A stretch of 31,597 nucleotides of DNA from an uncultured Spirochaetales bacterium (GTDB lineage Bacteria > Spirochaetota > Spirochaetia > Sphaerochaetales > Sphaerochaetaceae), in assembly GCA_949292445.1 (NCBI GenBank), contig CASEZU010000055.1:1-31597 (forward strand). Direction: 5' to 3'. Positions 14,673 to 31,597 of the stretch are shown here, in pieces (the stretch's first letter is position 1; each line of letters begins with the position of its first letter). The translations under genes were made by a program, and so were the position numbers. The notes beneath the pieces were generated by a model. That model had not been told where the DNA came from. It saw only the letters and a program-made list of their open reading frames with translations, and made no database searches.

Positions 14673-15191
14673 TCAGAAATCGCTCATCATCATGTCGCCG
14701 AATTCCGACGGCACCGGTTCCTCGGCAGCAGCTGCTGCACCGCCGCCGATGTTAAGCCCGAGCTGCTGGGCCATCGGGATGAACTCTGTAATATATTTGT
14801 CCTCCCCGAGACCTGCGACAAGTGCCGGCAGGCTGAGCACGACCTGGTTCTCATTCAGAGGTACGGAGAACTCAGCCTCGATCTCGAACTGGTTGAAATC
14901 CTCATCCTCATAGAGGACATGGATCGTGTGCTTCTGCCTCGTTACAGTGGCCTCCCTTCTTGTGCGCGGGGAGTACTCCTCGGCTTCCATTCCGTCCACC
15001 GATACCTCCGCCCACTCGAGAGCCTTGTACGAAACTCCGTCTATTTCCGTCGTCCTGTTGTCCACATAGATGGTGTGCTGCTTGCCGTAGTGGTAGAGGA
15101 ATACCGCAAGGAGGATGACGACGACGATCACTCCGAGGCGCACATAGAAGGACAGGTTGAAGAAGTCCTTTATATTCTTCTTATCGCTCAT
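14673..15191 (-). CDS. Small single-span membrane protein, last gene of the ABC import operon
   Basis: 172 residues. A hydrophobic segment (VRLGVIVVVILLAVFLYHYG, about residues 17-36) follows a short charged cytoplasmic N-terminus. The rest should be extracytoplasmic and looks like beta-strands (TIYVDNRTTEIDGVSYKAL, EATVTRQKHTIHV). The tail is low complexity: GGGAAAAAEEPVPSEFGDMMMSDF. It overlaps the upstream permease gene by 4 bp, so it is translationally coupled and probably an accessory subunit of the importer. I do not recognise a characterised family. A role in assembly or in contacting the binding protein is an inference from position only. Confidence 0.8.
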   Translation of the reverse strand: MSDKKNIKDFFNLSFYVRLGVIVVVILLAVFLYHYGKQHTIYVDNRTTEIDGVSYKALEWAEVSVDGMEAEEYSPRTRREATVTRQKHTIHVLYEDEDFNQFEIEAEFSVPLNENQVVLSLPALVAGLGEDKYITEFIPMAQQLGLNIGGGAAAAAEEPVPSEFGDMMMSDF

Positions 15192-16306
15192 GCCTTTGCT
15201 CCCTCCTGCTGAAGTCCTGCAAGCTCCTTGGCGGACTCAGCCTTCTCGCGTCTTGTCCTGATCTCATAGAGAACGAGCGCAAGTGTGATGACTCCGTAGG
15301 AGACGAATACACGGAAGTACTCTCCGATCTGCGCCTGTCCCATGAGGTTCTTTCCGGCCTGAGGAGTAAGTATGAACATCAGGTGGAAAAGAATGATTCC
15401 GAGGAAGACGTTCTTGATCGAAGCCTTGGATACCGAGGCGCCGCCTACGAGGAGCGCTGCGATACTGAACATACCTATCTGCGAGTGGGAATTGTATGTG
15501 TTGAGCGTTCCCATGTTCGAAAGGTAGAGGATCATTCCGTATGCTGCGAAGACAGTTGAGATGACGATGGCGAGGATTCTTGTCCTCTCGACCTTGATTC
15601 CGGCCTCTCTCGCGACCTCCATGTCCTGGCCTACAGCTCTCATGTCCTGGCCGAGCTTCGTCTTTCTGAACCAGATGATGACGACACAGAGGAGGGCGAT
15701 GAGCAGGATTGTCAGAACTGGAATGTTCACGCCGCCGATCGTGAGCTGCCAGTATGTGTCGACCGACTGCCTCACGTTGATGAGGTCAATCGTATTCCTT
15801 ACGCCGTAACCGCGCGGAAGGATGACCTGGTCGGAGTGGATCGGGATCACAGGACCCATTCCATAGAGGACGATGAGCTGGTAGACACCGTTCATGAAGA
15901 ACGAGATCATGTAGCTCGTGATCATCTCGCGTCCCCTGGCCATGTTGAGCATCTTGCCGCAGAACCATCCAAGGAGCACGGCGATCGGAGTTGCTATGAT
16001 CGCGGCGAGGAGAAGGCCGGGAATGCCGACGATGTTCCATGCCGTGATGAAGATGATTCCGATCTGTCCTGCCATAGCTCCGAGCGTCATTCCGAAGTTG
16101 AGTCCCATTCCGGCCATGATAGGAATCAGGAGTGAAAGCACGAGGAAGCTGTTGCGCATGATCCTCGTGACGATCTGGCTGACCAGATACTGTCCGGAGT
16201 ATCCCGCGATGGGAATACAGACGATGCAGAGCACGATGAAGATGATCGGAACGATGTTGTTTATCGCGAATTCCTTCGCGTTGAACTGCTTTTTATTCTT
16301 GCTCAT
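15188..16306 (-). CDS. ABC transporter permease (sugar/nucleoside-type, subunit 2)
   Basis: 372 residues with about eight to ten hydrophobic segments and the RbsC/BMP-type permease signature: PIMAGMGLNFGMTLGAMAGQIG near residue 62, GWFCGKMLNMARGREMITSYM, and the loop KLGQDMRAVGQDMEVAREAGIKVERTRI, which carries the EAA-like coupling region. It forms the inner-membrane channel with the product of the preceding gene. The genes overlap by 4 bp on both sides. The KTKLGQDMRAVG and AREAGI motifs match the nucleoside/simple-sugar importer class. The substrate is not known. Confidence 0.9.
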   Translation of the reverse strand: MSKNKKQFNAKEFAINNIVPIIFIVLCIVCIPIAGYSGQYLVSQIVTRIMRNSFLVLSLLIPIMAGMGLNFGMTLGAMAGQIGIIFITAWNIVGIPGLLLAAIIATPIAVLLGWFCGKMLNMARGREMITSYMISFFMNGVYQLIVLYGMGPVIPIHSDQVILPRGYGVRNTIDLINVRQSVDTYWQLTIGGVNIPVLTILLIALLCVVIIWFRKTKLGQDMRAVGQDMEVAREAGIKVERTRILAIVISTVFAAYGMILYLSNMGTLNTYNSHSQIGMFSIAALLVGGASVSKASIKNVFLGIILFHLMFILTPQAGKNLMGQAQIGEYFRVFVSYGVITLALVLYEIRTRREKAESAKELAGLQQEGAKA

Positions 16307-17343
16307 CTGGATGCCCCCGATTTTCTTGTCAGAGCGTAGAGGATCATACCGTTGGAGACGATGATCCTGAGAACCTCTGACATGTCAGTGTGGATCAGGT
16401 TGTTCATGACCGACGGGGTCATTGTCACTATTCCCTGATACAGAATCGTTCCGATGATGACGTTGGCAATCGAGGCCTTGTTGACCGACGCGCCTCCGAT
16501 GAGGATCGCCGATACTGCAGGCATTGCCATGTACATCGGTCCCTGGTAAAGCTGGATGAATCCGTAGCCCTGCTGGTAGCAGAGGATTCCGAGCGCTCCG
16601 AGCCATGTGGACATGATGACGGAGAGTGTCCTCTGCTTGTCCACGTTGATTCCGGCCGCTCTTGCGAATACAGGGTTGGATCCTACAGCTGTCATTGCCG
16701 TACCTGTCTTCGTGTGGAGGAATGCCCAGATGATGAGCGCAAATACCGAGAAGAAGAGGATCTCGCCGAATGATATCGAGAGCGTTCCTATATTGAGCTG
16801 CAGGAAATCCTTCAGTACGTGCGAATAGAAACCGTCTGTCGAGATTGTGGTCCTAAGACCGCTTCCGGAGTAGCCCCATACCATGGTCGGGGACTTATAC
16901 GGAAGGAGCAGCCACATGATGGACATGAAGGCAACAGAGGAGAAGCCGACATATGTCGCGATCATCATCTCGCTTCCCTTGACCCTGTTAAGGAGCTTGC
17001 CGTATCCCCAGCCGAGAATGATTGCGAACGGGGTGGAGTAGAGGATTGCGAGGAAGAATGAGAGCGGACCCGTCACGCCTGTCTCGATTGAGAGCGTGGC
17101 TCCGAGAAGGCCGGAGATGATTCCGAGCGGGAGGCCGAAGTTGAGGCCACAGCCGGAGTGGATCATCGGGACCATCGCAAGAACCATGATCGAGTTCATT
17201 CCGAAGCGTGCCAGCGTGTCGGAGATGGAGGCACCGACCCTGATGTTGACGAACGGAGCGATGATGAAGAGCAGCAGGAGGAATCCTGCGATGATGAGCC
17301 TCGGAAGACCGAAGGACTTGAGCACAGACTTGATCTTTTCCAT
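16303..17343 (-). CDS. ABC transporter permease (sugar/nucleoside-type, subunit 1)
   Basis: 346 residues from the ATG at 17343, which overlaps the ATPase stop (TGATG) and has AAAGGAGG about 7 nt upstream. An open extension to 17463 lies inside the ATPase gene and reads as Arg-rich nonsense. Many membrane segments. The conserved stretch PMIHSGCGLNFGLPLGIISGLLG matches that of its partner, as do WGYGKLLNRVKGSEMMIATYVG and the coupling loop TKTGTAMTAVGSNPVFARAAGINVDKQR. It and the next gene are paralogues and presumably form a heterodimeric channel. The substrate is unknown. Confidence 0.9.
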   Translation of the reverse strand: MEKIKSVLKSFGLPRLIIAGFLLLLFIIAPFVNIRVGASISDTLARFGMNSIMVLAMVPMIHSGCGLNFGLPLGIISGLLGATLSIETGVTGPLSFFLAILYSTPFAIILGWGYGKLLNRVKGSEMMIATYVGFSSVAFMSIMWLLLPYKSPTMVWGYSGSGLRTTISTDGFYSHVLKDFLQLNIGTLSISFGEILFFSVFALIIWAFLHTKTGTAMTAVGSNPVFARAAGINVDKQRTLSVIMSTWLGALGILCYQQGYGFIQLYQGPMYMAMPAVSAILIGGASVNKASIANVIIGTILYQGIVTMTPSVMNNLIHTDMSEVLRIIVSNGMILYALTRKSGASR

Positions 17344-18950
17344 CACTTTGCCTCCTTTCCTGTCTTGCCGACCATGAGGATGCCGAATTCCTCGCTCGGC
17401 GTGGAGGCCGGGAGGATTCCGGATACGGCACCGTCTGTGACGATGGCGATGCGGTCGCAGCACTGCCTGAGCTCCTCAAGCTCCGAGGAGATCATGACGA
17501 TTGTGACGCCGAATTCCCTGTTGTATTCCCTGAGCGCCTTCAGAACCAGTGCCTTGGCACCGATGTCGATTCCTCTTGTCGGCTCAGAGACGAAGAGCAG
17601 CTTCGGCTGGAGCGCAAAGGACTTGGCAAGACAGATCTTCTGCTGGTTGCCGCCGGAGAGCTCCTTTGCCTTCTGCTTGGATGATGTGCATTTGATCTGC
17701 AGCTGGTCGATGTATTTCTTCGTCACTTCCTCGATGGCACTCTGGTCCCTCCATTTGATAAGACCGCCAAGGTACTGCTTGAGGAATTTGTTCTGTATCT
17801 GCATCGCGGGGAAGGCCACGTTCCACTCAAGAGACTCGTCAAGCAGGAGGCCGACGCCTCTCCTGTCCTCGGATACAAACGCGACGGATGCATCGAGACA
17901 GGCTCTCGGATTGTTGAGAGGAATCTCCTTGCCGTTGAGCGTCACCTTGCCTCCGGCAGGGTAGAGCCCCATGATTCCGTTGGGAATGCCGATCTTTCCC
18001 TGGCCTGCGAGTCCTCCGATGCCGATGAACTCACCCTTGTGCACGTCGAGGTTGACGTTCTTCACCACCTCGCCGGGCATGTCAACCCAGAGATTCCTGA
18101 CAGAGAGCACGACTTCCTTGGAAAGCGGCCTCTCGTCCTCCTTTCTCTGAGCCTGCGGTGCATTGACGTCGCGGCCTACCATCAGCCTCGCCATCTCCTG
18201 GATTGATGTCTTCTTCGCATCGAGCTCGTTGATGATGCGGCCGTCGCGCATGACGATGACCTTATTGCACACATCAAGAATCTCCTGGAGACGGTGCGTG
18301 ATGAAGATCACGGAGATGCCCTGGGCGGAGAGGTTCCTTATTGCCTTGAGAAGCATCTCGGCTTCCTTCTCCGAGAGAACAGCCGTAGGCTCGTCGAGCA
18401 CGAGAAGCCTGATCGAGCTCTTGGATATCTCCCTGGATATCTCCGTGAACTGCTTATGTCCGACAGGCATCTCGGATACGAGCATGTCAGGATCGAGGCT
18501 CACTCCGAGCTTCGTTATGGCATCGATAGCTTTTTTCTGAAGTTCTTTTCTGTCTATGGTGTTCGCTCTCTTGCCGAATACAAGCGAGAGCACATTTTTA
18601 TTCTCTGGTTCTCTGTTGAGCAGTATGTTCTCTGCTGCTGTGAAGCCTGGAAGGAGGGAGAACTCCTGGTGGACCATTCCGATACCGGCCCTGAGCGCAT
18701 CCAGAGGGGATGCAAACTTAACTTCCTTGCCATCTATGAGGACCTTTCCCCCATAGCCACCCGTCTGATGAATGACGTCCATGCCGAAGAGGATGTTCAT
18801 GAGCGTGCTCTTTCCTGCACCGTTCTCACCGACGAGGCCCAGCACCTCACCCTGCTTCAGCGTGAAATTGACATCTTTCAGTACGGGGTTTCCATTGTAC
18901 TCCTTGCTCACATTCTGCATTTCCAGCAAGGGCCTTGTCATTTCACTCAT
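17343..18950 (-). CDS. ABC transporter ATPase with two nucleotide-binding domains (RbsA/MglA type)
   Basis: 535 residues, two tandem ABC domains. Domain 1: Walker A GENGAGKST (about residue 40), a weak signature (MPVGHKQFTEISRE) and Walker B LLVLDEPTAVLS. Domain 2: a Walker A-like GLAGQGKIGI lacking the Ser/Thr after Lys, an intact signature LSGGNQQKICLAKS, and VSEPTRGIDIG, where the usual Asp before Glu is Ser. Paired head to tail, one ATP site is complete and the other is defective on both faces. It energises import through the two permeases. The start follows an AAGGGG site and lies downstream of an attenuator hairpin. The family is clear; the substrate (sugar, nucleoside or other) is not. 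Confidence 0.92.
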   Translation of the reverse strand: MSEMTRPLLEMQNVSKEYNGNPVLKDVNFTLKQGEVLGLVGENGAGKSTLMNILFGMDVIHQTGGYGGKVLIDGKEVKFASPLDALRAGIGMVHQEFSLLPGFTAAENILLNREPENKNVLSLVFGKRANTIDRKELQKKAIDAITKLGVSLDPDMLVSEMPVGHKQFTEISREISKSSIRLLVLDEPTAVLSEKEAEMLLKAIRNLSAQGISVIFITHRLQEILDVCNKVIVMRDGRIINELDAKKTSIQEMARLMVGRDVNAPQAQRKEDERPLSKEVVLSVRNLWVDMPGEVVKNVNLDVHKGEFIGIGGLAGQGKIGIPNGIMGLYPAGGKVTLNGKEIPLNNPRACLDASVAFVSEDRRGVGLLLDESLEWNVAFPAMQIQNKFLKQYLGGLIKWRDQSAIEEVTKKYIDQLQIKCTSSKQKAKELSGGNQQKICLAKSFALQPKLLFVSEPTRGIDIGAKALVLKALREYNREFGVTIVMISSELEELRQCCDRIAIVTDGAVSGILPASTPSEEFGILMVGKTGKEAK

Positions 18951-18973
18951 TCTTACCCCTTATAAACACAGAA

Positions 18974-18998
18974 GAAAGGGGAGGAATCCTCCCCTTTC
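18974..18998 (-). terminator. Intercistronic attenuator hairpin between binding protein and ATPase genes
   Basis: GAAAGGGGAGGA pairs with TCCTCCCCTTTC around a single central base (practical stem about 10 bp), then TTCTGTGTTT on the minus strand. It sits 18 nt after the binding-protein stop and 24 nt before the ATPase start. Such hairpins usually raise binding-protein mRNA over the rest of the operon by partial termination or 3'-end protection. Confidence 0.75.
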
Positions 18999-19015
18999 CC
19001 CTGAGGATTGAAGTA

Positions 19016-20233
19016 TTAGTTGAACTCCTTTCCTGTCATGTAGAAGCACCACTCAGGCACTTCGACGTCTGTGTTGCCCATGTAATAGCCCGGATCGCCC
19101 ATGATGTAGGTATCCTGGTATACGAGGACGAAGTTGTCACTGGAGACACCGGAGTTGGCGTCAACGTAGTACGAACCGTTCCAGTTTGCACCAGGTGTGT
19201 AAGCCTGGAAAGCCTTCCTGATGTTGCGGATCGATGTATAGTCGAAATCCTCGCCGTTCATCTCTGCTGTGACAGCGTCATATGCGAGGCGTCCGAGGCC
19301 AGCTGTTGTTGTGTAGCCGTAGCTGTATGCCCATGTTCCGAAGCGTCCTGCACCGCCCTGCTCGACGACAGCAGCCTCAACCTTTGCGAGGATTGCCGGG
19401 AAGTCGCCAGCCTCTGCGGAGAGGTCGATTCCGAGAGCTCCAGGGTATCCCATGAGCGGTGACGGGAGGTCAGCCTCTACGAAATATCCGCCATACTGCA
19501 TGAGCTGCCTGAGAAGCGGCTCTGTGTGGGCATCGTTCGTACAGAAGAAAGCTGTGTTCTCGCCATACTGCTGGATCCACTCCGGAGTCTTCTCGAGGAT
19601 GTACTGCTGAGCACCTGCGATTCCGACGTCGGATGTCGGATCAGGAGCGGAGACATCGACGAACTGCATTCCGAGCTCGTTGCAGGTCTGGATCATGATC
19701 GCTCTTCTTCTCTGCATCTTCTCCATTGCGAGGTGGCGCGGGAAGGAGATGTGTACGAATGTGTCGCATCCGAGCTCGTGAGCCGCGTTGATCATGAGGT
19801 AGCCGCGGGCAACGAAGTCGTTGGATGTTACGAGGTCAGCAGCACCGGAGATGAGGTACGGCTCCTCGTGAGCTTCGCCGGCGAAGCAGAGGATGTCAGG
19901 TCTTACAGCCTTGATCTGGCGGAAAGCCTCTGCAGTTCCGGGAACAGCCTGGTTGACAATGACTGCCTTCATGAGGGGGTCATCAGCAAGGCCTGCGATG
20001 ACGGAGATTGTTGTCTCCTGCTCCTCCATGAAGTTGTCGGGGTATGTCATGTGCTGGATGTATCCGCCATCCGCAACAGCGCCGAGCTCTGCGATGAGAG
20101 CCTCTGCACCGCGGAGGTCGTCCTCAGACTGAGATACGGTACCCGTAACAACACCAATGTGGAACGGTGCATCCGCGAAAGCTGCGGAGGAAAGCACCAC
20201 AAGCACCATAAGAGCTGTTAAAAGTTTCTTCAT
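19016..20233 (-). CDS. DUF3798-family periplasmic substrate-binding protein of the ABC importer
   Basis: 405 residues with a signal peptide (MKKLLTALMVLVVLSSAAFA, then DAPFH). No lipobox Cys is present, so the mature protein should be periplasmic and soluble. The fold reads as a two-lobed type I binding protein: HIGVVTGTVSQSEDDLRGAEAL at the start, a MKAVIVNQAVPGTAEAF strand, HISFPRHLAMEKMQRRRAIM, and FFCTNDAHTEPLLRQ. This matches my memory of the DUF3798 family of spirochaetes and clostridia, but no search was run. It is first in the operon, with the importer genes following after an attenuator. The ligand is unknown. Confidence 0.82.
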   Translation of the reverse strand: MKKLLTALMVLVVLSSAAFADAPFHIGVVTGTVSQSEDDLRGAEALIAELGAVADGGYIQHMTYPDNFMEEQETTISVIAGLADDPLMKAVIVNQAVPGTAEAFRQIKAVRPDILCFAGEAHEEPYLISGAADLVTSNDFVARGYLMINAAHELGCDTFVHISFPRHLAMEKMQRRRAIMIQTCNELGMQFVDVSAPDPTSDVGIAGAQQYILEKTPEWIQQYGENTAFFCTNDAHTEPLLRQLMQYGGYFVEADLPSPLMGYPGALGIDLSAEAGDFPAILAKVEAAVVEQGGAGRFGTWAYSYGYTTTAGLGRLAYDAVTAEMNGEDFDYTSIRNIRKAFQAYTPGANWNGSYYVDANSGVSSDNFVLVYQDTYIMGDPGYYMGNTDVEVPEWCFYMTGKEFN

Positions 20234-23446: not shown

Positions 23447-24142
23447 ATGAGAAAGCTCATCCCACTGCTCATCCTAATGCTGCTGTTTCTCTTTCCTTCC
23501 TGTGCGACAAAGAGCCGCGAGGGTTATACCGATCAGGAGAAGCAGACTGCACTCCTTGTGCTCGGCAGTGACATGATTGACTCGGTGGAAGCTGCCGGCG
23601 GGATAAAAGTCGAAGCGTTCGAGGAGGCTCTCCCTCCATCATTCACGGCCTATGACGGTTTTTCCCCGATGTATCAGTCGCTGGCAGCCTCATACTCTGA
23701 AAGCCTTTCAGAAACAGTCTCGCCGATGCTCTCCGAGGCCTACCCGGTTCTGCGGGAAGCGCTTGTGGAAGCCTCTTCCTCTGATATGGATACCGCAATA
23801 GCTTCCCCCGAGGGAATGACGGACAGGCTTCAGGATATTGCCGCAGTGGAAATCTATTCACTTTTCATTGACAGCGTGGAGAGTATCTGGGCGGATGCAG
23901 AGAATGCTTTCAGCGAGGCAGAGGGAATTTTCTTGTCGGTAAAGGATTCGTATACAAATCTTGAATCGGTTGGTGTTGGTATTTCACTTCCGAATCCGGA
24001 AGGTTTTAGCAAGGATCAGCTGGCATTTGTTGCGGAGGATTACCTCTTCACCCAGCTTGGCGAAGCTGAGCGTGAACTCAAGAGCAGGCTTCCCGACAAC
24101 CCCGATTCGCCGTACTCTGTATTCTGGGAGGAGACGATTTGA
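23447..24142 (+). CDS. Lipoprotein of unknown function
   Basis: 231 residues from the ATG at 23447, chosen because it opens a lipoprotein signal (MRKLIPLLILMLLFLFPSC). The lipobox FPSC is loose but acceptable for spirochaetes. An extension to 23411 would begin at the -35 element. The mature protein is acidic and largely helical with many Ser/Glu, for example SESLSETVSPMLSEAYPVL and SLFIDSVESIWADAENAFSEAEG, and has no motif I recognise. Its stop overlaps the TTG start of rarA by 4 bp, so a membrane-anchored protein is coupled to a replication-repair ATPase. The reason for that pairing is unknown. Confidence 0.8.
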   Translation: MRKLIPLLILMLLFLFPSCATKSREGYTDQEKQTALLVLGSDMIDSVEAAGGIKVEAFEEALPPSFTAYDGFSPMYQSLAASYSESLSETVSPMLSEAYPVLREALVEASSSDMDTAIASPEGMTDRLQDIAAVEIYSLFIDSVESIWADAENAFSEAEGIFLSVKDSYTNLESVGVGISLPNPEGFSKDQLAFVAEDYLFTQLGEAERELKSRLPDNPDSPYSVFWEETI

Positions 24143-26340
24143 ATCTTTTTGAAGCCGCCGTCGACAGGGCAGAGGAGCCGCTTGCAGCACGGATGAGGCC
24201 CAGGACCCTCGATGAGTACATAGGGCAGGATCATATTCTCGGAAAGGGCAGGCTGCTGCGGCGAGCCATACAGGCTGATCAGCTCTCATCGGTCATATTC
24301 TACGGTCCTCCGGGAACAGGAAAGACAACGCTCGCGAGAGTCATTGCCAATACAACCAAAAGCCATTTCTCCACGCTCAATGCCGTGCTTTCAGGTGTGA
24401 AAGAACTCCGGACGGAGATCGACGAGGCAAAATCCAGGCGTGAGCTTTACGGAATGCGCACCATTCTCTTCATAGATGAGGTGCATCGCTGGAACAAGAG
24501 CCAGCAGGATGCCCTGCTTCCCTGGGTTGAGAACGGAACGTTCATACTTATCGGGGCGACTACGGAGAATCCTTATTTCGAGGTCAATGCCGCCCTTGTC
24601 TCCCGGTCCCGGATCTTCCAGCTGAAGAAGCTCACGGATGAGAACCTCCATGACATCGCGATGCAGGCCATCTCTGACAGGGAGCGCGGTTATGGACGCT
24701 ACCATGTCACTTTCGAAGATGGAGCACTAGAGCATCTTGTATCGGTCGCGAACGGTGATGCCCGGTCGCTGCTCAATGCGCTAGAGCTTGCCGTCGAGAC
24801 CACGCCGGATACATTCCCCCCTCCTGATGGGACTGAAATCTACATCTCAAAGGAGACTGCGGAGGAATCGATACAGCGCAAGGCCGTGCTCTATGACAAG
24901 GAAGGCGATTATCATTTCGATGTAATATCGGCATTCATAAAATCATTGAGAGGGTCGGATCCTGATGCCGCGCTCTACTGGCTGGCAAAGATGGTCGCAG
25001 CAGGCGAGGATCCGAGGTTCATCTTCCGGAGGATGGAGATTCTTGCCGCTGAGGATGTGGGCATGGCCGATCCATATGCAGTTGCAGTGGTAGAGGCCGA
25101 TGCCTCAGCCTTTGACAGGATTGGACTTCCGGAAGGCCGCTTTCATCTGGCACATTCAGCCATCTATCTTTCCACAGCTCCGAAGAGCAACAGCGCGCTG
25201 GGCTTCTTCGATGCGCTCTCCGATGTGGAGAAGGAGAAGGCAGAGGAAGTCCCGAATCATCTCCGTGACCCGAGCCGTGACAGCAAGGGGTTCGGCCATG
25301 GCGAAGGCTATATGTATCCGCATTCCTACAGGGATCACTGGGTTGCCCAGCAGTATCTGCCGACAGGGCTGCAGGGCAAGATTTACTACAAGCCCGGTGA
25401 CATAGGCTACGAGGCGACGATCAAGGATGAGGTCATGCTCAGGCGCGAAGCGCAGCTGGAGGCTGTTACGGAAGATCTCTATAAGGAGAATCTTACTTTC
25501 TCTCCAGGTGACAAGGACCGCGGCAAATGGGTTGAGAGAGCGCTTTCCAGACGTTCAGAGAGCCTTCTGAGGCTGATGAGGCGTCTTTACAGCGGCCTCG
25601 ATATCCTCCGCTATTCGAATGTCCTGGTGCTCAACGCCTCTCACGGCCTGCTGCTGTGGCCGCTGATGAAGAAGAATCCCGAGGGACTTTCAGTCGCTGT
25701 CGTGAAAAACAGTGAGCAGAAGGAGATCATCGAGCATTTCTCATCGGAACTCGACAAACTGCTGCGCCCCGAGGTCCTGGTCTCGGAGAGTGCAGGTGCT
25801 TTCTCACTTCTGGAGGATGGGCTTATGTTCAGTGTCATCGCCGGGCGCAACGTGCTCTCACGCCTTGAGACGGACAAGGCTGTGCTTCCTCTGATCCTCT
25901 CCCGTCTCGAGAGCGGCGGCAAGCTCGCTCTTCTCGAGTCGATACCGGTGCTGTCATCACGGCTCTCCGGCTTTGCTTCGCCGGAGGTATCTTCTCTGCT
26001 TGTGAAGGCCGAGGAGGAGATCTATTCAGGGAAAAACCCGCTCACGGCCTGGGGCAAAGAGGAGCTTGAGGCGGCTGTCTCCGCTGTTTTCCCGGAAGCC
26101 ACGTTCGAGTATGAGAATGAGAGCGAGGAGCGTACGCTCACTGATCAGGCGCTGAGGCATTTCTATAAGATGAGCTACTCCGGATGCGGACTGTCGGAGG
26201 AGGAATTCCTTTCAGCATTCCCCTCGAGAAATGTCCGGTGGTCAAACACTGTCGCTGTCATACGCTCAGGCTATTCGCCTGCAGGGAAAAAGAGGGGCTC
26301 GGATGAGTGGGGAGAGGTCATGAGAAAGACAGGGATCTGA
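24139..26340 (+). CDS. rarA: RarA/MgsA replication-associated AAA+ ATPase fused to a methyltransferase-like C-terminal domain
   Basis: 733 residues from a TTG start overlapping the lipoprotein stop; GGGAGG lies about 9 nt upstream. Residues 1-430 are a normal Rar[17 protein letters not shown], Walker A GPPGTGKT (56-63), Walker [17 protein letters not shown] (from 109), sensor 1 [12 protein letters not shown] (139-150), then the clamp-loader-like C-terminal domain with [19 protein letters not shown] and [22 protein letters not shown]. The ~290 further residues look like a class I methyltransferase Rossmann fold ([31 protein letters not shown], a helix pair, [19 protein letters not shown]), but the Gly-rich SAM loop is poor. 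RarA acts at stalled forks. The role of the extra domain is unknown. Confidence 0.92.
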
Positions 26341-31377: not shown

Positions 31378-31383
31378 TTTTGG

Positions 31384-31392
31384 TGGTAAAAT
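31384..31392 (+). promoter_or_regulatory. Extended -10 promoter of the guanine deaminase gene
   Basis: TGG-TAAAAT fits an extended -10 and would start transcription near 31399-31400, exactly at the first base of the riboswitch P1 stem. The -35 is poor. Confidence 0.55.
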
Positions 31393-31399
31393 ACAGAAA

Positions 31400-31475
31400 G
31401 GGATGTATAAGCCTCTGATAAGGAGAGGCGTATCTACCGGCTGCCGTAAAAGCCCAGCTACATCCCGGGAGGGAT
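31400..31475 (+). promoter_or_regulatory. Purine riboswitch (guanine-type C74) with a translational expression platform
   Basis: P1 GGGATGT/ACATCCC (31400-31406, 31460-31466); P2 GCCTCT/AGAGGC (31411-31416, 31424-31429); loop L2 GATAAGG; J2/3 GTATCTAC; L3 CCGTAAA (31444-31450). GG of L2 and CC of L3 make the conserved kissing pairs. By alignment to the xpt aptamer the specificity base is C (31458), and the U51 equivalent (31435) is kept, so guanine or a similar 6-oxopurine is expected. P3 is imperfect. Outside the aptamer ATCCC (31462-31466) can pair with GGGAT (31471-31475) over the ribosome-binding site, so ligand binding should free the site. The aptamer is clear; the platform is inferred. 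Confidence 0.88.
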
Positions 31476-31477
31476 AT

Positions 31478-31597
31478 ATGGCAGCATACTCTATTCATGG
31501 GGACATCATCTGGACAGAGGAGCCAGGATCATTCAGGTACGTTGAGAACGGATATCTCTCAGTGGAGGACGGAAAGGTCCTTTGCGTCTCATCAGTG
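31478..31597 (+). CDS. guaD: Guanine deaminase, N-terminal 40 residues (partial)
   Basis: ATG at 31478 with GGGAGGG 4 nt upstream. Translation begins MAAYSIHGDIIWTEEPGSF and continues RYVENGYLSVEDGKVLCVSS, then the window ends. This is the small beta-sandwich start of amidohydrolase-superfamily enzymes, and the G-DIIWTEEP...NGYLSVEDGKV pattern fits guanine deaminase. The metal-binding HxH site lies beyond the window. The enzyme converts guanine to xanthine and ammonia for purine breakdown or nitrogen supply. The riboswitch context supports the purine assignment; another amidohydrolase is possible. Confidence 0.78.
   Translation, partial: MAAYSIHGDIIWTEEPGSFRYVENGYLSVEDGKVLCVSSV

Follow-up and report, generated by a model that had tools for sequence, protein, structure and literature searches.

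At the end of the window (the whole stretch of 31,597 nucleotides analysed here, from an uncultured Spirochaetales bacterium), a guanine-type purine aptamer lies immediately before a probable guanine deaminase gene, and we consider it likely that this leader is a riboswitch by which binding of guanine, or of a closely related purine, switches translation of the deaminase ON. Under such control, the enzyme would be produced solely when its substrate is present. The proposal draws on the aptamer itself, on computed folds in which the ligand-free leader buries the start region, and on a survey of purine leaders in other genomes.

The aptamer and the gene behind it

When the whole window was searched with cmscan at gathering thresholds, the sole Rfam match was RF00167 (Purine), at 31383-31480 on the + strand, with a score of 46.9 bits (E 5e-5) that is above the curated cut-off of 37. 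The Rfam alignment and the fold place a 7-bp P1 between 31400-31406 (GGGATGT) and 31460-31466 (ACATCCC; its ATCCC doubles as the anti-Shine-Dalgarno strand), and P2 between 31411-31416 (GCCTCT) and 31424-31429 (AGAGGC), with L2 (GATAAGG) at 31417-31423, all these parts and those that follow being on the + strand. J2/3 (GTATCTACC, 31430-31438) holds, by the Rfam alignment, the pocket bases of purine aptamers; P3, in a shifted register, pairs GGCT (31439-31442) with AGCC (31451-31454), L3 (CCGTAAA) occupies 31444-31450, and J3/1 (CAGCT, 31455-31459) contains C31458, the guanine-selecting base in the alignment, which we take to be position 74 in the numbering of B. subtilis xpt. The guanine-I pocket bases U22, U47, U51 and C74 are all present in this alignment, as U31408, U31431, U31435 and C31458. 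The guanine-type aptamer noticed in the preliminary description is thus borne out by the family score and by the C at the selecting site.

P1, P2, and L2 and L3, the loops that make the GG-CC contact in purine aptamers, are intact by sequence. P3 is weak: three of its six pairs form in the usual register (at most three do so in 18 of the 142 leaders surveyed below), and the energy model prefers the shifted 4-bp helix GGCU/AGCC, with which J2/3 has 9 nt and J3/1 has 5 nt. Position 73 is G instead of A and position 48 is A, as in 15 and 14 of the 142 surveyed leaders, respectively. With so poor a P3, ligand affinity or specificity may differ, and we infer from the sequence that the ligand is guanine or a close purine.

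The Shine-Dalgarno sequence (SD), GGGAGGG at 31467-31473 (+ strand, read from the sequence itself), directly adjoins P1, which ends at 31466, and the ATG follows at 31478-31480. The open reading frame (31478-31597, + strand, cut by the window end) is probably the 5' end of a guanine deaminase gene (guaD), a call made on the N-terminal similarity of 40 residues because the window ends there. In blastp, these 40 residues matched 189 of 206 GuaD proteins (the best at 63% across 30 aa, E 7e-8, with 329 proteins searched), supporting the same assignment in the preliminary description; a Cetobacterium guaD matched at 50% over 30 aa (tblastn, E 0.4). No blastp match was obtained among 120 unrelated DUF3798 proteins or with the single 8-oxoguanine deaminase compared; for the 40 residues NCBIfam and Pfam gave nothing above cut-off, as expected at that length, and a PDB search gave weak prolidase matches only. 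Upstream, TGGTAAAAT (31384-31392, + strand, read by eye) could be an extended -10 element, from which a transcript might begin at about 31398-31400, at the edge of P1; since a consensus scan reported no + strand promoter in the window, we infer this element from its letters.

Because P3 and J3/1 are unusual, we considered that the ligand might be a different purine, namely xanthine, hypoxanthine or 8-oxoguanine, or that the pocket might be guanine-II-like; the leader would still be an ON switch ahead of a purine deaminase. In addition to the weak P3, two relatives speak for it: guanine-II, which PMC9295807 describes with a one-nucleotide J2-3 insertion and predicts to be ON, and the 8-oxoguanine deaminase that follows a related ON-type aptamer at survey locus L121. 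Compared by description with the guanine-II junctions of PMC9295807, our aptamer would resemble them, with one extra nucleotide in J2-3 and an insertion in J3-1, only with the shifted P3. The four pocket bases checked are, however, those of ordinary guanine aptamers, and the reading frame has blastp matches among guanine deaminases but none with the single 8-oxoguanine deaminase examined; we regard another purine as rather unlikely.

The divergent neighbour of the deaminase gene encodes an SNF2 helicase. Elsewhere in the window, genes for a DUF3798 periplasmic binding-like protein, a sugar-type ABC ATPase and two permeases (15188-20233, - strand) look from their sequences like an uptake system of unspecified substrate. 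Among the 120 relatives of the DUF3798 protein listed, the closest share 96-97% identity, and the named ones, at 69-73% identity, mostly carry the names Sphaerochaetaceae or 'Ornithospirochaeta', one being labelled Cloacimonetes; they suggest that the DNA comes from a gut spirochaete of this kind. The + strand gene at 24139-26340 encodes a RarA-like AAA ATPase of 733 aa that is extended at its C-terminus and scores 966.8 bits with PRK13341 (cut-off 651).

The predicted ligand-free fold

For 31398-31500, the MFE fold (-33.8 kcal/mol) differs from the aptamer: the AUG and half of the SD are paired in it, and it is incompatible with both P1 and P3. Its main element is a 9-bp helix between 31440-31448 (GCTGCCGTA, RNA GCUGCCGUA), which comprises the P3 5' strand and L3, and 31477-31485 (TATGGCAGC, RNA UAUGGCAGC), which comprises the start codon and most of codons 2-3, both arms on the + strand. 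Nested inside this helix, a hairpin at 31462-31475 (+ strand; -7.1 kcal/mol) pairs ATCCC (31462-31466) with GGGAT (31471-31475) across a GGGA loop. The preliminary description had based the mechanism on the P1 3' strand competing for the SD: the ATCCC/GGGAT hairpin does exist, but the account was incomplete, the helix between P3/L3 and the start codon being the larger of the two. As modelled, the ligand-free leader has the form expected of an add-like translational ON switch, in that it buries SD and AUG and excludes P1.

When the transcript was lengthened stepwise, the aptamer was the MFE fold for ends at 31466, 31470, 31476 and 31480. The alternative fold was ahead by 3.3 kcal/mol at 31483 and by 7.7 kcal/mol at 31486, and it kept a lead of 6.4, 2.9, 6.8 and 3.1 kcal/mol at 31490, 31500, 31512 and 31540, respectively, in gaps that exclude ligand and loop-loop energy, both of which would favour the aptamer. 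In the free fold, the unpaired probability of the AUG was 0.00-0.02; the AUG is weakly paired even in the P1 state (unpaired 0.05-0.07), where SD and AUG retain partial local pairing. Opening 31467-31483 cost 8.0-10.4 kcal/mol in the free ensemble versus 3.7-5.1 kcal/mol with P1 and P2 held. A synonymous change of codon 2 from GCA to GCC reduced the computed gap from 7.7 to 1.9 kcal/mol.

According to these computations, P2, P3 and P1 would fold first during transcription, and the aptamer fold would be kept until transcription passes 31480 and then flip. Guanine caught in the junction is expected to lock P1 and P3, so that SD and AUG would stay accessible. Without guanine, the start-codon strand UAUGGCAGC would invade P3/L3 and AUCCC would leave P1 for GGGAU, burying the AUG and half of the SD. 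Because the invading strand is that of the start codon, the coding sequence would itself serve as the expression platform. The direction and the effect size in the cell are expectations drawn from the model.

Chance seldom produced helices of this kind, in tests that were selected post hoc, after the helix had been noticed. When 31467-31500 was shuffled with its dinucleotides preserved, a P3/L3-start helix of at least 9 bp arose 41 times in 10000 (52 times by energy), and 241 times in 10000 (227 by energy) when the SD and ATG were kept; among 3714 window segments, 37 reached 9 bp and 106 the helix energy. The strength of the SD hairpin was matched by 26 of 5000 permuted P1 arms. At the level of codons, 10 of 3721 sense-codon pairs, the real pair included, gave a gap at least as large as that observed at 31486, and the codon pairs of 17 other hand-picked gene starts of the window gave at most 3.4 vs 7.7 kcal/mol, none of them sufficing; part of this outcome reflects the ability of L3 CCGUA to pair with any UAUGG. 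The whole-leader energy nulls were weak (51 of 1000 with the downstream part shuffled, 307 of 1000 with codons shuffled and 446 of 1000 with P1 permuted): once the P3/L3-start helix is present, permuting the P1 pairs barely alters the balance, and the 446 were equally strong.

Purine leaders in other genomes

The genomes used for comparison were taken from the class, phylum and orders that surround a Lachnospiraceae handle and are not spirochaetes; of 291 searched, 94 had an RF00167 match. Five draws were made for guanine deaminase, and 69 loci with an E of 1e-90 or better were examined for an aptamer; match G791 was left out, and L080 begins at a contig edge with its leader outside view. A guanine-type aptamer lay directly upstream of guaD in 9 of the 69 loci (L077, L078, L103, L226, L227, L233, L238, L242 and L251), a fraction that is not a prevalence because one draw used aptamer-positive genomes and three were centred on positive genomes; the draw not selected for aptamers gave 1 of 22 (G650). 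The nine loci amount to about six distinct leaders, with L078/L227, L103/L233 and L077/L238 as close pairs. In two further genomes, G121 and G034, an aptamer with a permease gene behind it lies about 1.5 kb upstream of guaD. A scan of viral contigs with the GuaD alignment found one locus, without a purine match.

The P3 5' strand and L3 are complementary to the terminator arm that precedes the U-run, along 13 contiguous positions in L103 (18 if one mismatch is allowed) and along 10 in L078. Terminator and aptamer are mutually exclusive in these two leaders, which gives them an ON logic. The P3 5' strand plus L3 forms the terminator arm in L078, L227, L103 and L233, as it would form the ligand-free arm in the window. 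Where decided, the Clostridia-type guaD leaders are transcriptional, with U-run terminators, and their start codons lie about 150 nt or more past the aptamer start (the start of L226 is unsettled), whereas the leader in the window is predicted to be translational.

For a broader survey, 152 aptamer loci were submitted to a regular expression; 143 were located, one duplicate was removed, and 142 were classified together with the 9 guaD loci (two of the 142, L123 and L125, coincide with L103 and L077, respectively). This set is non-random, being a subset of RF00167 matches made of top-scoring, low-scoring and guaD-genome loci, and ON or OFF was called from the outermost helix at the U-run only. 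The 11 T calls include errors, since the regular expression mislocates some aptamers: L114 is by eye without an aptamer and L040 has a C listed as T. As a positive control, leaders of adenosine deaminase genes whose selecting base is U were ON in 3/3 cases. The guaD leaders were ON in 5/9 cases (3/6 by distinct leader), with none OFF, two ambiguous and two without a call; the latter (L077 and L238) have, by manual inspection, an 8-bp P3-strand helix before the U-run and were counted as compatible, not as decided. Most guaB (15/17), purE (15/17) and xpt-like (13/18) leaders were OFF, 43 of 52 combined, with a single ON call, in purE. C-type leaders of the large permease cluster were OFF in 30 of 38 cases, the one ON call being L133, a guaD-operon permease. 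Contrary to a simple rule by which catabolic means ON, xdhB-like leaders were OFF in 2/3 and C-type adenine deaminase-like leaders in 3/4 cases, and xdhA was ambiguous; ON calls were also made at a xanthine-permease-like gene (L052), a BMP-like gene (L203) and two others (L155 and L223). Regarding the gene labels, one representative each of xpt, purE, guaB, adenosine deaminase and 8-oxoguanine deaminase scored above its NCBIfam cut-off; those of guaD and xdhA had these as best family but below cut-off (325 vs 375 and 673 vs 780 bits, respectively). The L124 permease is a Pfam Xan_ur_permease, and the 'FADox', BMP, xdhB and ade labels were assigned by eye.

The survey fits the statement of the preliminary description that known guanine riboswitches mostly repress, and it bears on the reading in which the ligand-stabilised P1, which ends at the SD, crowds the ribosome so that guanine lowers expression. 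P1 indeed directly abuts the SD, and the majority of the guanine-type leaders surveyed, guaB, purE and xpt-like, are OFF. Against this, SD and AUG are already hidden in the ligand-free fold as computed, which is costlier to open than the P1 state, none of the nine guaD leaders was classed OFF, and repression of an enzyme by its own substrate makes little sense; we hold an OFF switch to be improbable. That the aptamer is decayed, without regulatory function, and the alternative helices fortuitous would agree with the weak P3, the modest family score of 46.9 bits and the weak whole-leader nulls, and is very improbable given that the junction bases, L2/L3 and P1 are kept and that two aptamer-excluding helices, each rare in shuffles, jointly cover SD and AUG. 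An ON switch is what the computed folds and the guaD leaders point to, and substrate-induced catabolism suits a guanine deaminase gene. The ON direction predicted in the preliminary description is therefore probably correct, on the fuller basis of the modelled P3/L3-start helix together with the pairing of the P1 3' strand and the SD.

The leader in the window is more compact than those surveyed: its start codon is 17 nt from the conserved A that follows J3/1, and the shortest of 130 surveyed core-start distances, with starts picked by script, is 22 nt. A pattern for this compact layout, which matches the window exactly once, also occurs in 5 of 391 class-level genomes, but at that ATG all five lack both an SD-like motif and any ORF of more than 29 aa; a slightly looser pattern gave one match in viral contigs, without an upstream aptamer core. 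The layout, in which SD and start codon come straight after the aptamer, looks new.

Leaders of other kinds were also observed. In L121 (G267:C55:14144-14240, - strand), a related ON-type aptamer lies directly before an 8-oxoguanine deaminase gene (NCBIfam PRK08203, 578.6 bits vs a cut-off of 532); the genome, which comes from the class surveyed around the Lachnospiraceae handle, is outside Paenibacillaceae. L040 and L126 have ON-type guanine-type aptamers with the start codon 34 and 39 nt past the core, respectively; P3 3' strand and J3/1 lie within the terminator helix, and the genes are FAD-dependent oxidoreductase-like by eye (L126 without an NCBIfam match). Five genomes with a guaD gene contribute L115, L116, L117, L119 and L120, in which the guanine-type aptamer, starting at 1501 of the oriented locus, is overlapped by a terminator-like helix, and the call was ON in 4/5. 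A conserved element, GGTATGTCACARTCCAAATTG, follows at 1643-1664 with no long gene, and in 4/5 of these loci a second terminator was seen by eye after it; the riboswitch may here control a small RNA or a short peptide.

Comparison with known purine riboswitches

The add adenine riboswitch of Vibrio vulnificus is a translational ON switch that controls a purine deaminase, and its P1 3' strand pairs with the start region when ligand-free. The leader in the window shares with it the predicted three-way aptamer fold and translational ON direction, a P1 3' strand that would pair with the start region when ligand-free, and a probable purine deaminase gene. It differs in its selecting base (C, not U), in its probable guanine deaminase gene, in the 17 nt between core and ATG, and in its main blocking strand, which would be P3/L3 and not P1 alone. 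The 8-oxoguanine riboswitch, found before 8-oxoguanine deaminase genes and to our knowledge confined to Paenibacillaceae, is likewise a guanine-aptamer relative of the ON type that makes a deaminase substrate-induced; our leader resembles it in its aptamer relationship, in its predicted direction and in the proposed substrate induction of a deaminase, and differs in predicted ligand and in deaminase. With guanine-I (xpt, purE, guaB and permease leaders) our leader shares aptamer and pocket bases, but the guanine-I leaders surveyed are mostly terminator-based OFF, whereas ours is predicted to be ON.

In the literature, a review counts all four guanine switches of C. difficile as OFF (PMC11477304), and genes resembling those of 8-hydroxyguanine and guanine deaminases are associated with xanthine-I (NMT1) RNAs (PMC7373994). 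PMC9295807, which also mentions the 8-oxoguanine class, predicts guanine-II and 2'-dG-III to be ON and describes xanthine-II architectures as compatible with ON; these published classes stand beside the mostly repressing guanine riboswitches of the preliminary description. In the same paper, guanine-II has the J2-3 insertion and most other variations of xanthine-II, and xanthine-II and 2'-dG-III are located before purine breakdown genes. All three share their scaffold and predicted ON direction with our leader; as described there, they are from Firmicutes and use terminators where a mechanism is given, and the genes of guanine-II are mostly phosphoribosyltransferases. Purine ON switches (guanine-II, xanthine-II) are already published, and our leader would be a further variant of this kind. 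In open-access titles and abstracts, we found no guanine-type aptamer controlling guanine deaminase, and did not meet the guaD ON-switch group of Clostridia-type genomes.

Altogether, the most specific form of our proposal, on which our confidence is evenly balanced, is that a spirochaete carries a minimal guanine ON switch acting on translation. Its start codon and codons 2-3 would directly invade P3/L3, and the near-constant L3 CCGUA would act both as loop-loop contact and as anti-start strand against UAUGG, making it the translational twin of the Clostridia-type guaD ON group, which uses the same strand against a terminator. The rule that would arise is that L3 (CCGUA) can act as an anti-start or as a terminator strand. 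If true, guanine aptamers would be able to induce the breakdown of their own ligand, in a very short layout with codons 2-3 acting as the switching strand, the purine ON switches of the guanine-aptamer scaffold would extend to spirochaetes, and the window would hold the guanine counterpart of the add adenine switch.
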